64,000 nucleotides of DNA from an uncultured Bacteroidales bacterium (GTDB taxonomy: Bacteria > Bacteroidota > Bacteroidia > Bacteroidales > Bacteroidaceae). How positions within the stretch are numbered: the stretch's first letter is position 1; the number at the start of each line of letters is the position of its first letter. Below, in pieces: positions 47,278-60,490 of the stretch. The notes under the pieces were generated by a model. The model worked only from the letters and a program-made list of their open reading frames with translations. It was not told the origin of the DNA and did no database searches. The stretch covers positions 112,967-176,966 of the forward strand of contig CADBXO010000004.1 of NCBI GenBank assembly GCA_902798685.1. The letters run 5' to 3'. Made by a program: the position numbers and the translations under genes.

Positions 47278-47310
47278 TGATACAATTGGGGACAGACCCC
47301 TTTTGTATCA
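47278..47310. repeat. GGGGACAG palindrome, copy A
   Basis: TGATACAA and TTGTATCA arms enclose TT-GGGG-ACAGA-CCCC-TT. The stem can be extended outward by three A-T pairs. It lies between two divergent genes. Its TTTG (47302-47305) is placed to act as -33 box for GH9. Confidence 0.85.
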
Positions 47311-55706: not shown

Positions 55707-55737
55707 AGTACAAAAGGGGACAGACCCCAATTGTACT
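55707..55737. repeat. GGGGACAG palindrome, copy B
   Basis: AGTACAA and TTGTACT arms enclose AA-GGGG-ACAGA-CCCC-AA. It begins two bases after the FISUMP stop codon. No T-tract follows, so it is not a standard terminator. Confidence 0.87.
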
Positions 55738-57462: not shown

Positions 57463-57495
57463 TAGTACAATTGGGGACTGTCCCCTTTTGTACTA
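57463..57495. repeat. GGGGACAG palindrome, copy C
   Basis: TAGTACAA and TTGTACTA arms enclose TT-GGGGACTGTCCCC-TT. Its right end holds the TAG stop codon of the minus-strand DUF3784 gene. Read in that gene's sense the order is AAAAGGGG first, as in copies B and F. Confidence 0.87.
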
Positions 57496-57798
57496 TTTTT
57501 TTGCCCAGGTATAGACAAGTATGTAGTATGCGATGAGCATAGTCCAGACGGCTGTCGAGAAGAGATATCCCGGCCACTTGGCTCCCTCGATGGAAAGGAG
57601 GAAATACAATGGTGCCAGGATTATCAGGAAAACACCCATGAGAATCCTGAGACGTCCGATATTAAACTTCTCTTCTTCTTTGGTTGATGAAAAATGGAAA
57701 CAGCCTAATACAAAATTATCACACTTACCTGTCAGAATAAATGTTCCAAGAATAAGGTTAAAGGCGGCTAGTACTATTAATACAATCAGCTTTCCCAT
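57493..57798 (-). CDS. DUF3784-type small membrane protein
   Basis: 101 residues with three membrane helices (LIVLIVLAAFNLILGTFIL, ILMGVFLIILAPLYFLLSI, WTMLIAYYILVYTW). The central NIGRLRILMGVFLI pattern fits DUF3784. Ends in AKK and TAG, the stop being part of palindrome copy C. Function unknown. Confidence 0.75.
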   Translation of the reverse strand: MGKLIVLIVLAAFNLILGTFILTGKCDNFVLGCFHFSSTKEEEKFNIGRLRILMGVFLIILAPLYFLLSIEGAKWPGYLFSTAVWTMLIAYYILVYTWAKK

Positions 57799-57990: not shown

Positions 57991-60123
57991 ATGATTTACC
58001 TTGTTTTATCTTCATTATGCCTGGCCCTTCTTTACGGGGTTTACCGATTGGCTTTGTGCCGCACTACTTTGCACCGGTTCAACAGGATTATGCTGTTGTC
58101 AATAATAGGTCTTTCTGCCATACTTCCGGCAATCAGGATTAGTGGAATTGGCGCAATTCACGCAATTGGGGACAGTCCCCTTTTGCACGTGCATAATTCA
58201 GTTAAAGAGGCATCTTTTTCAGGTGCAAAAGTGGACAGTCCCCAATTGCCGGCTGAGTGGAGCTTGGAGGCTGTTCCTGAAGATGCAACAGCCGATGAGA
58301 TGTTTATTCCGGTTGAGAGGGCAGATGTCAAGACCAGCGTTGCTACGGGTGTGAAGGTGGCTGAGACGGTAACTCAGATGGATTGGGTTACGATTGTTAC
58401 CTATTTATATCTGATGGGTGTGGCGTTCTTTATGGTCCGCCTTCTAATCGGCATCATCCGCGCCGAGACGCTTTGCAGGTTGGGCGGACGTCGTTTGCCC
58501 GACGGCTCCAAACTGCTGGTATGCGACGGCCAGTTCCAGCCCACCAGCTGGCGCCATACCATCATAATAAGCCGCAGCGATTATGAATCGGACAACTCCC
58601 GTATGATAATAGAGCATGAGCAGGCGCATATACACAACCGTCACTCGATCGATGTGCTTCTGGCACAGATGGTATGTGCCCTGCAGTGGTTCAACCCTGC
58701 CGCGTGGGCTCTCAAGAACGCTCTCCAGGAGGTACATGAGTATGAGGCCGATGCCAACGTGCTGGCCGAAGGTGAGAACGAGCGCCGATATCAGTTATGC
58801 CTTGTCCAGGCGGCACTGAACGCCAGGATAGGGTATGTGACCAGCAATTTTGCCGATTGTTCAACCAAAAAACGTATAAAGATGATGAATCGTGACCAGT
58901 CTTCTCCTTTTGTTTGCTTACGTGCGCTGCTTATGCTGCCCGTAGTATTGGTTACCATCCTGCTGGCATCGGCCTGCAAACCCAAGGCCGCCCAGGATGC
59001 TTCTGCCGCAGCTCAGCCTGAGCCAGCTGTCGAATCAACTCCGGCTCCCGCCGTCCAGCCTGTCGCCCAGTCAGAACCTTTTGATGCCGATGCTTTCCTG
59101 AAGAAATATCCTCTGCCCGAACTTGTCAGGATGAACGATCTCATGGTTACTGTCGAGAGATCGGGTGAAATCTGGATTAATGCCGATATTTATCGTGCAT
59201 GCTCCAAGACATCGCTTCCAACTTTCGAGAAGGATCTTGAGCAATTCAAGAAAGATGCAGAAGAAGCTAATGTGAAAATCCCGGAACAGGACAGAGTGTT
59301 TGTAACCTTTGAACGGATTGAAGACCTTGAAGTTTGTTCCAAACTAACGGATATACTGTCCAAGACGTATGCCAAAGAAAAAATCCACGTGATGGAAAGT
59401 CGCATGGTTCCGATCATGGCAGTTGCACCGCGTTGGGGTTGGAACATGAATACTGAAAAAGACAGGTGTCTTGATGTTAAGATATCGGCCGATAACAAGA
59501 TAACACTCACAGCCTGGAATGCCCCTGGCAACCAGAAGAAAGTGGAGAAAAAGATTGCCGATGTTGAGGATGTGAAGGGAGAAATCGATAATCTCTTCCC
59601 CGCAGGAAGCGGTAAGGTCATGTATGGCTTGGGTGCCGATCAGAAAAGTACAGGACGTATATCGGCCAGGATCATGGCATTCTTACGGGAAGACAGGTTT
59701 GTCCAGGCTGATTATAACAAGGGCCCTGCAAACATGACCCATAAGGATTCAATTGACTACATTATCCTGGGAAAGTACGGTGATGACGGCGGTCGCAAGC
59801 GTCACATCAAGGATATGAAGTGGTATAACGAGAATAAGGACAAGAATGAGTTCTTCCGTATGGGATTCATTGACGGACAGTTGTGCGTATGCAAGGGTAA
59901 TGATCCTTCAAAACTGGCACCTCTGGCGTTTGAAGACCTGGTTCCTTATTTCAAGGCCAACTGCCCCGACGGCAATGAGCGCAGCGCAATCGTTCTTCTG
60001 GAGCTGCCCATGGATGATGAGTCCGTACCGGTAGAGTTTCTGGATAAACTGCTTACAAAAATGGAGGGTTGGGTAACCACATTCACCCGCCGTCTGTACG
60101 TGAGCCCCAAACATATTGAATAA
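57991..60123 (+). CDS. blaR1: BlaR1-type M56 metalloprotease sensor with long periplasmic C-terminus
   Basis: 710 residues. Helices at about 1-20, 33-50, 131-157 and 309-328. The M56 zinc motif is HEQAH (209-213), with HEYEAD (249-254) as third ligand region, so the protease looks active and should cleave the BlaI repressor upon an envelope signal. The linker after helix 2 contains two in-frame palindromic inserts (copies D and E, residues 58-66 and 79-87). The ~380-residue C-terminal periplasmic part (Pro/Ala-rich to ~360, then an unrecognised alpha/beta region) is not a penicillin-binding domain, so the signal is probably not a beta-lactam. Followed by blaI after 4 bp. Confidence 0.9.
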   Translation: MIYLVLSSLCLALLYGVYRLALCRTTLHRFNRIMLLSIIGLSAILPAIRISGIGAIHAIGDSPLLHVHNSVKEASFSGAKVDSPQLPAEWSLEAVPEDATADEMFIPVERADVKTSVATGVKVAETVTQMDWVTIVTYLYLMGVAFFMVRLLIGIIRAETLCRLGGRRLPDGSKLLVCDGQFQPTSWRHTIIISRSDYESDNSRMIIEHEQAHIHNRHSIDVLLAQMVCALQWFNPAAWALKNALQEVHEYEADANVLAEGENERRYQLCLVQAALNARIGYVTSNFADCSTKKRIKMMNRDQSSPFVCLRALLMLPVVLVTILLASACKPKAAQDASAAAQPEPAVESTPAPAVQPVAQSEPFDADAFLKKYPLPELVRMNDLMVTVERSGEIWINADIYRACSKTSLPTFEKDLEQFKKDAEEANVKIPEQDRVFVTFERIEDLEVCSKLTDILSKTYAKEKIHVMESRMVPIMAVAPRWGWNMNTEKDRCLDVKISADNKITLTAWNAPGNQKKVEKKIADVEDVKGEIDNLFPAGSGKVMYGLGADQKSTGRISARIMAFLREDRFVQADYNKGPANMTHKDSIDYIILGKYGDDGGRKRHIKDMKWYNENKDKNEFFRMGFIDGQLCVCKGNDPSKLAPLAFEDLVPYFKANCPDGNERSAIVLLELPMDDESVPVEFLDKLLTKMEGWVTTFTRRLYVSPKHIE
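58162..58186. repeat. GGGGACAG palindrome, copy D, inside blaR1
   Basis: GCAATT-GGGGACAGTCCCC-TTTTGC, coding residues 58-66 of BlaR1 (AIGDSPLLH). No frame break. Confidence 0.87.
58225..58249. repeat. GGGGACAG palindrome, copy E, inside blaR1
   Basis: GCAAAA-GTGGACAGTCCCC-AATTGC, the opposite arm order to copy D, coding residues 79-87 (AKVDSPQLP). D and E together form a larger inverted repeat across 88 bp and are read in the same codon phase (GAC AGT CCC). Confidence 0.87.
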
Positions 60124-60127
60124 AGAG

Positions 60128-60490
60128 ATGAAAGCACTGTCAGAAAGAGAGCAGGAGGTGATGAATGTCATCTGGGAGGTGCGCAACTGCTGCGTGGATG
60201 ATGTCCTGCAGCGTATGCCTGAGCCCAAACCTGCATACAATACGGTCCAGACCTTCATGAAAATTCTGGAGGAGAAGGGGTTCCTGGCTCATAAGCGCGA
60301 CGGCAAGAAGTTCATATTCTACCCGCTTATAGAGAAGCCGGAGTACAACAGGTGGTCACTTAAGCATATGAAAGACAACCTGTTCGGCGGATCGGCCAAA
60401 TCCCTGCTCAACACATTCATCCGCGACAACGACCTCACGGAGTCCGATATCAGTGACCTGATGGCGCTGCTTGAAGAACTAAAAAATTGA
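60128..60490 (+). CDS. blaI: BlaI/MecI-family transcriptional repressor
   Basis: 120 residues from ATG 60128. Winged-helix: LSEREQEVMNVIWEVRNCCVDDVLQRM and AYNTVQTFMKILEEKGFLAHKRDGKKFIFYPLI; the C-terminal dimer helices end in DISDLMALLEELKN. It should bind the TCCTAA-N4-TTAGGA sites upstream of blaR1 and be cleaved by BlaR1. The order blaR1-blaI is the reverse of the more usual blaI-first arrangement. Confidence 0.93.
   Translation: MKALSEREQEVMNVIWEVRNCCVDDVLQRMPEPKPAYNTVQTFMKILEEKGFLAHKRDGKKFIFYPLIEKPEYNRWSLKHMKDNLFGGSAKSLLNTFIRDNDLTESDISDLMALLEELKN

Follow-up and report, generated by a model that had tools for sequence, protein, structure and literature searches.

In-frame REP palindromes in a BlaR1-type sensor gene of an uncultured Bacteroidales bacterium and their apparent turnover among orthologues

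A 64,000-nucleotide stretch of contig CADBXO010000004.1 from an uncultured Bacteroidales bacterium (GCA_902798685.1; this whole stretch is called the window below) contains a gene for a BlaR1-type membrane sensor of peptidase family M56, and the coding sequence of this gene holds two palindromes, copies D and E. The locus raises the question of what these palindromes are, how they came to be translated and whether they stay as they were once written. The sequence-only reading that drew attention to them had claimed that both lie in frame within blaR1, that their arms run in opposite order and that they share a codon phase and encode like peptides. All of this was confirmed, with both cores inside the open reading frame (ORF) (Table 1) and the peptides IGDSPLLH and KVDSPQLP read in the common phase. 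We consider it probable, and hold with good confidence, that D and E are repetitive extragenic palindromic (REP) elements forming an inverted dimer, that they derive from the population of REPs associated with REP-associated tyrosine transposase (RAYT) genes in this genome, and that they now serve as coding sequence; in-gene copies in general would later be overwritten by the active REP type. The likeness to the REP family is the strongest element of this account, and the proposed ongoing rewriting of coding copies is a weaker though more interesting one.

The two copies belong to an inverted repeat (58162-58196 against 58215-58249) whose 35-nt arms are 86% complementary around an 18-nt spacer. 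Folded as RNA, the 88 nt form a single long stem of -45.6 kcal/mol (z -8.6). Copy D is stable when folded alone (z -3.95) and copy E is not (z -0.22), which indicates that D and E pair with each other in the fold; E carries GTGG where GGGG is expected. The gene has both features of an M56/BlaR1 sensor, a Peptidase_M56 domain and a BlaI-type partner gene. The sequence-only reading had placed the palindromes in the linker past the second membrane helix, and an AlphaFold2 model of residues 1-325 (12-sequence alignment) agrees, predicting a helix that stops at residue 52, another that starts at 132, and a predicted local distance difference test score (pLDDT) below 50 at residues 52-126. The arms of the pair are of the type GCAATT..TTTTGCAC. 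Elsewhere in the same genome, a palindrome GTGCAAAAGG..CCAATTGCAC of this arm type lies outside any recognized gene (L071:1436, at G000:C10:93235; G, C and L numbers denote our genomes, contigs and loci).

The core shared by D and E recurs throughout the source genome (G000), a draft of 2.26 Mb in 42 contigs that is 83.7% complete. Within the window, GGGGACWGTCCCC was matched seven times at up to two mismatches, against a mean of 1.14 and a maximum of 6 in 100 shuffles. Genome-wide, the same pattern at up to one mismatch was found at 25 places versus 2 for the reversed control pattern, and the looser centre GGGGNCNGNCCCC at 92 versus 33. Among the matches listed for the genome, 61 cores were inspected individually. 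Most of them proved to lie away from recognizable genes, each at the middle of a palindrome some 40 bp long (for example AAAATGATACAATTGGGGTCAGGCCCCAATTGTATCATTTT), and eight sit in five identifiable genes, the blaR1 pair counted, an assignment that rests on open frames and Pfam matches and not on a gene caller. Two Y1_Tnp genes (PF01797) with Pfam scores above the cut-off are also present, the first bordered by single palindromes of the REP kind and the second by inverted pairs with a GGGGACGGTTCCG centre. The sole NCBIfam match of both is the REP_Tyr_transpos model NF047646 (E 5.3e-15 and 2.2e-17), and one of them gives a weak sequence match to the structure 4er8 (E 0.084). The genome thus displays many mostly intergenic palindrome copies, a resident Y1/HuH transposase gene flanked by palindromes (as do the relatives examined) and inverted dimers of the BIME (bacterial interspersed mosaic element) or REPIN (REP doublet forming hairpin) kind, namely the blaR1 pair, a pair in pcrA and the pairs at the second RAYT. 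A Y1_Tnp match was obtained in 23 of 37 genomes of the genus. In a sample of 149 genomes from the whole order, in which the family was represented by one further genome and the genus by none besides G000, GGGGACAGDCCCC occurred in ten, and in more than two copies solely in G000.

The second Y1_Tnp gene (L001:1462-2316) terminates inside its own flanking REP pair, and its last residues (..TKGTVPFDTPAESKNPV) are therefore partly REP-encoded. REPs were also seen to provide an ATG (AAAATGATACAA..) in frame with a phosphatase-like gene (L014:1501) and an ndk-like gene (L077:2235), both named by eye; automatic annotation of these genes may extend their N-termini into the REP.

BlaR1-type genes were compared across 19 loci of the genus, 17 of which included the N-terminus (L028 and L035 gave none). 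Each gene is the best match of its genome, and the most distant ones, from G032, G017 and G016 (49-57% identity), may be paralogues. Linker cores, at up to two mismatches, are carried by nine of the 17 genes (two copies in six genes, three in two and four in one), and eight have none, among them a decayed copy in G011 that was scored as core-absent. All 22 cores are read in one phase. A pair with 63-bp spacing and similar arms is common to six genomes, G000 included; the gene of G005 has three copies with arms ACAAAAGGGG..CCCCAATTG, and that of G022 two copies with arms ACCAAAGGGG. The core-free genes have differing linkers (six of the eight inspected). The sequence-only reading had proposed that relatives be aligned for a clean absence of 25-75 bp, and this was not seen, as the segment between two conserved motifs spans 106-128 aa in genes with cores and 97-127 aa in genes without. 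In the linker of the gene in G007 (L023:1501-3615), a DAIGDSPLLH unit stands three times in direct orientation; an in-gene REP has seemingly been multiplied there together with adjacent codons. In 80 loci of named genomes, the DSP-type peptide with cores was limited to two loci of this group, L201 and L202, while L204, likewise of the group, has it in decayed form. The distant homologues L213, L215, L231 and L242 each have a single core, at one or two mismatches, but lack a DSP-type peptide, and we take these four cores as chance. The finding that would have spoken for ordinary conserved coding sequence, distant orthologues with the same DSP-containing linker encoded by different DNA, was not encountered in these 80 loci, eight of which give matches that start beyond the linker and are silent on its peptide.

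The reading phase of the in-gene copies is consistent with the sequence of the palindrome edge, which bears TGA or TAG. When 50 distinct 41-base copies from 32 loci of G000 (a few in-gene ones included) were read in both orientations, stops occurred in 86, 30 and 4 of the 100 oriented copies in the three phases. An arm filter retained 52 in-gene cores from four gene families, which are related by descent and thus not independent events; 28 and 24 of them fell into the two other phases and 0 into the mostly closed one. Of the 22 BlaR1 cores, 10 passed this filter. A gene therefore mostly keeps a REP in two phases only, because the third is usually closed by the stop at the edge. The cores of pcrA and manC use another phase than those of blaR1.

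Besides blaR1, four genes of G000 hold in-frame REPs: pcrA, with a pair at 63-bp spacing between the regions for the UvrD_C domain and the tudor domain; manC, with two sites; a fusion of feoA and feoB; and a TIGR02452/PARG-like gene. In the PARG-like gene, a REP occupies one position in 17 of 27 genomes (27 loci; a G002 fragment and a weak G018 hit were excluded). The manC sites fall at gaps or stretches of low likeness in an alignment, not a structural superposition, with the solved protein 2x5s. In 12 genomes, manC has a Y1_Tnp gene about 1.5-4 kb away. In G013, the place of a conserved stretch of PcrA is taken by an inverted pair which, by eye, is of the type found beside the Y1_Tnp gene of that genome. 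PcrA orthologues (L111-L137) often have REP-type peptides in the linker before the tudor domain throughout the genus; several genomes have pairs of the GTVPFGSG..GTVPG type, and extra units occur in G016 and G023. The REP of the feoA-feoB fusion (L053:1-1734), read in G000 alone, lies between both domains and encodes VQKGSGPNCTV. Around the Y1_Tnp gene at C2:115150, 12 REP cores, including the two in manC, are crowded within 12 kb (G000:C2:112592-124219), and this crowding next to manC may be the reason for the double hit of that gene.

To be strictly of the Rickettsia palindromic element (RPE) kind, a palindrome has to be a clean in-frame insertion relative to homologues, as RPEs are. The loop lengths of the PARG-like gene, manC site 1 and BlaR1 do not fit this definition. 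The MF-to-DC stretch of the PARG-like protein has 24 residues in nine of ten REP-free genomes and 25 in the other, 24-28 residues in the 14 single-REP genomes and 35-37 in the three with a pair. Site 1 of manC, read in 25 genomes (12 with a single REP, 2 of the pair type, 11 with none), measures 51 nt in 11 of the 12 single-REP genomes and 60 in G026, 42-51 nt in ten of the 11 REP-free genomes and 117 in G012, and 93-96 nt in the two with the pair type. Site 2, whose state in several genomes was taken from the gene alignment and not from site extraction, is 36-39 nt long where it holds a single REP; in the four REP-free genomes from which it was extracted, its length is 24-27 nt. REP-free gene versions have unlike loops of similar length. 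Host sequence may have been replaced when the REP entered, or surplus may have been trimmed afterwards; both are compatible with the loop lengths. The earlier suggestion of an RPE-like system stands as far as mobile-type in-frame palindromes are concerned, with eight of 17 BlaR1-type genes core-free, and fails for clean insertion, which was not seen.

At a fixed in-gene position, the type of REP changes among genomes. The arms in the PARG-like gene are ATACAA..TTGTAT, ATACCA..TGGTAT, GTGCAA..TTGCAC and others. An alignment of 13 distinct rows, representing 16 of the 17 REP-bearing genomes (the decayed copy of G013 was excluded, and one of two copies was picked by hand in G008, G015 and G020), gave an arm covariation of 0.239 versus 0.114 in shuffles (0/500 as high), a comparison in which, by the program's own caution, relatedness among the sequences may be enough to surpass shuffles. 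There were 16 cells with changes on both sides, and no more than 5 when the partners were slid; at least as many pairs with a double change turned up in 41/500 shuffles, and pair types were not raised in number. On a tree of the gene without the loop, with strong support for 5 of its 24 inner branches, presence or absence of the REP requires 2 changes and arm type 10. The corresponding numbers on the manC tree are 4 and 11, the latter for a finer label that includes the centre.

Of the two manC sites, about 200 nt apart, site 1 alone holds a REP in G008 and site 2 alone in G011; ten genomes have a core at both, and within each of these the two are 90-100% alike. For the 7 distinct site pairs of these ten genomes, identity was 0.951 within genomes and 0.882 and 0.836 between them (33/20000 permutations); G027, whose partial gene confused the site labels, was dropped. 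The sister genomes G022 and G023 (support 100/96) show the same three base differences at both sites, plus one further base at site 2, and two of the three shared differences are stem partners. Outside the REPs, the two genes differ at 46 of 980 positions, a figure taken from this pair alone, as other genome pairs include unequal ends. On average, the manC copies also resemble nearby REPs more in their own genome (0.880) than in other genomes (0.828; 68/40320 permutations, 8 genomes, with G000 copies up to C2:121000). By eye and unscored, the manC peptides agree with the palindromes on either side of the transposase gene in G006, G008 and G013, and in part in G011.

Several observations weigh against REP elements that were spread by RAYTs and are still being rewritten. 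GTAG or CTAC was found within 14 nt of the core in just 3 of the 50 distinct 41-base copies, and CGTC or GACG in 0 of the 50, a test that covered the first family and not the second (GGGACGGTTC), which has GACG. With the terminal GTAG/CGTC tag lacking, the strict filing is "REP-like", and we call the elements REPs on their remaining features. The two RAYT candidates score 55.6 and 63.3 bits with NF047646, under its curated cut-off of 80. No Y1_Tnp match was obtained in 14 of the 37 genus genomes, some of which have in-gene REPs (G007, 97% complete, and G027), and many of the genomes searched are incomplete drafts. No transposition event was observed in the genomes compared, and no clean empty site was found in the BlaR1-type, ManC, PcrA and PARG-like alignments. 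The arm type of the blaR1 pair differs from that of most REPs of G000, so these two copies do not look freshly written. Weak branches of the gene trees, the unlike REP types of manC in G030, where the single REP of site 1 is not of the type found at site 2, and the bad fit between manC and local REPs in G021 and G018 point the same way, while manC of G000 and G023 is slightly closer to the REPs of another genome. The own genome was the best column in four of eight cases (G002, G005, G022 and G026), and because of this our confidence is slightly lowered both in the reading given at the outset and in the bolder one described below.

Other explanations account for parts of these data. That the DSP linker is ordinary coding sequence conserved for the protein, with the DNA palindrome as a by-product, would explain why all 22 BlaR1-type cores share one phase and like peptides. 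However, extragenic palindromes contain the same DNA core, pcrA and manC carry it in a different phase, eight of the 17 related genes lack it, and distant homologues whose match spans the linker have no DSP-type linker; we rejected this explanation, which is in practice refuted by the copies outside genes and hardly deserves any credence. The 88-nt stem could instead be under selection as a signal in RNA or DNA, for instance as an attenuator of translation or transcription within blaR1, as its very stable fold and the retention of the 63-nt-spaced pair in six genomes might suggest, but the stem is absent from those same eight genes, three others have three or four copies at other spacings and similar elements occur in unrelated genes, making such a signal quite improbable. 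A strict Rickettsia-type element without a tie to the resident RAYT would likewise be in frame, palindromic and present in many genes, which is how PMC3733652 portrays RPEs in the sections that treat them; the RAYT-like genes flanked by related palindromes and the single-REP PARG-like loops of almost REP-free length speak against it, and we regard it as very improbable.

The changes of type at fixed sites have two further candidate explanations. Homologous recombination of whole gene segments, or of a linked RAYT-manC block, would need no rewriting of REPs in place, and with Y1_Tnp 1.5-4 kb from manC in 12 genomes such a block could bring a single REP type along when it moves. In G021, moreover, the manC copies are of one type amid local REPs of another, and whole-segment exchange can explain some cases such as this one. 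As a general account it is nevertheless unlikely, though by no means negligible, since G022 and G023 differ at 46 of 980 manC positions outside the REPs yet show the same three changes at both sites, and the PARG-like gene shows 10 type changes on its own tree. Quasipalindrome correction by template switching during replication yields mutually matching arms, and so could produce arm covariation within one palindrome without any donor. It leaves unexplained why two manC sites some 200 nt from each other show identical changes, even in the centre, and why manC copies tend to be like the REPs close by in their genome, and we judge it improbable. Neither segment exchange nor template-switch correction easily fits the three changes shared by the two manC sites.

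Under the reading that we prefer, of REPs turned into coding sequence, RAYT-like transposases would spread the elements, and host sequence would be lost on their arrival or soon after. REPs would then persist in coding loops and linkers where the frame is open and the protein tolerant, and the disordered linker predicted between membrane helices 2 and 3 would tolerate extra or changed residues; the effect of the pair on the M56 sensor protein is probably close to neutral. In-gene copies would later be overwritten by the REP type then active, through RAYT-directed replacement or gene conversion between REPs. A bolder version, to which we give tentative and somewhat less than even credence, is that the resident RAYT itself directs REP-for-REP replacement that reaches into genes, so that loops of such unrelated proteins as the M56 sensor, ManC, the PARG-like protein and PcrA are rewritten species by species to match the palindrome type that the transposase currently uses. 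REPs are named as extragenic, and their spreading and renewal by RAYTs are poorly understood. In-gene REPs provide an unusually clean record of these processes, because the frame and the flanking codons fix the alignment and type replacement can be counted. If rewriting in place is true, a domesticated transposase keeps editing the loops of host enzymes, and part of the protein difference between species is unrelated to function.

The group with in-gene palindromes consists of uncultured gut bacteria, mostly from cattle-type hosts. By M56 protein, the nearest named relatives are RUG10612 (80% identity), RUG14751 (71%), RGIG7837 (65%) and RGIG7532 (64%), recorded as metagenome-assembled genomes under the labels uncultured Bacteroidales or Bacteroidaceae bacterium. 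The prefix RUG presumably denotes rumen genomes; RGIG7837 and RGIG7532 originate from the reticulum and the omasum of water buffalo, respectively, and remoter M56 relatives from yak and horse faeces. The features of the window are collected in Table 1.

Table 1. Positions of the palindromes, genes and linker in the window
Feature	Position	Strand	Basis or detail
In-gene REP copy D, read ...AIGDSPLLH	58162..58188 (core 58168-58180)	+	core GGGGACAGTCCCC
In-gene REP copy E, reversed arm order, read ...AKVDSPQLP	58223..58249 (core 58231-58243)	+	core GTGGACAGTCCCC, one mismatch
D+E REP pair (inverted dimer), core starts 63 bp apart	58162..58249	+	one 88-nt stem as RNA
Gene for M56/BlaR1-type membrane metallopeptidase, carrier of the palindromes	57991..60123	+	ORF of 710 aa; Pfam PF05569 (Peptidase_M56), E 1.2e-12
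Linker after membrane helix 2, codons 52-126, housing both palindromes, predicted disordered	58144..58368	+	AlphaFold2 pLDDT <50
Gene for Penicillinase_R (BlaI-type) repressor, downstream of the M56 gene	60128..60490	+	Pfam PF03965, E 1.9e-31
REP of the same family upstream of blaR1, outside the gene	57464..57497 (core 57473-57485)	+	palindrome sequence
Intergenic REP core GTACAAAAGGGGACAGACCCCAATTGTAC (L015)	55716..55728	+	pattern match
REP core ATACAATTGGGGACAGACCCCTTTTGTAT (L014), probably intergenic	47288..47300	+	pattern match

The sequence-only reading had remarked that in-frame palindromes in genes of Bacteroidales would be new to it, a point that does not survive comparison with the literature, as elements of this kind are already described in passages of Di Nocera 2013 (PMC3733652). 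According to these passages, in-frame intragenic REPs occur within ORFs of several species, with a UvrD/Rep helicase among the targets, and Bacteroidetes are among the phyla with CGTC repeats. More than half of the intragenic GTAG/CGTC REPs are reported there as dimers or groups that encode 20-30 residues, two Xanthomonas species are noted to have different REPs at about one recB site, and intragenic REPs are proposed to be neutral in flexible linkers or loops. Our elements resemble those REPs in their location in ORFs, their dimers and their UvrD/Rep-type target; they differ in having GTAC, ATAC or GTGC arms, mostly without the GTAG tag, and they go beyond what these passages describe in switching type at one in-gene position across many genomes, in arm covariation and in the likeness of two sites. 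While the kind of element is thus known, its in-place turnover across orthologues looks new, and no publication on in-gene REP type switching was found in a search limited to the open literature, mostly at the level of title listings.

A related phenomenon outside genes is the REP/RAYT "orthoswitch", in which orthologous RAYTs are bordered by different REP classes and new REP variants may partly replace older ones (Nunvar et al. 2013, PMC3686654). The main text of that paper nowhere uses the word "intragenic", and here the switch apparently reaches in-gene copies and so alters proteins; if RAYT-directed in-gene replacement is true, the orthoswitch is written into proteins. With RPEs, in-frame palindromic repeats in the proteins of many genes as summarized in PMC3733652, our elements share the palindromic repeats carried in frame, but here RAYT-like genes accompany the family and single-REP PARG-like loops are near REP-free length. 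The E. coli TnpAREP/REPtron system is described, in the portions of a 2021 paper (PMC8266576) devoted to it, as a HuH transposase gene with palindromes that are often in inverted pairs, in which the E. coli REPs require GTAG and some RAYTs tolerate changes of the tag. The present system is like TnpAREP (PDB 4er8) in combining a HuH-type transposase gene with palindromes in inverted pairs, and unlike it in that most elements are devoid of GTAG and the match to 4er8 is only weak.

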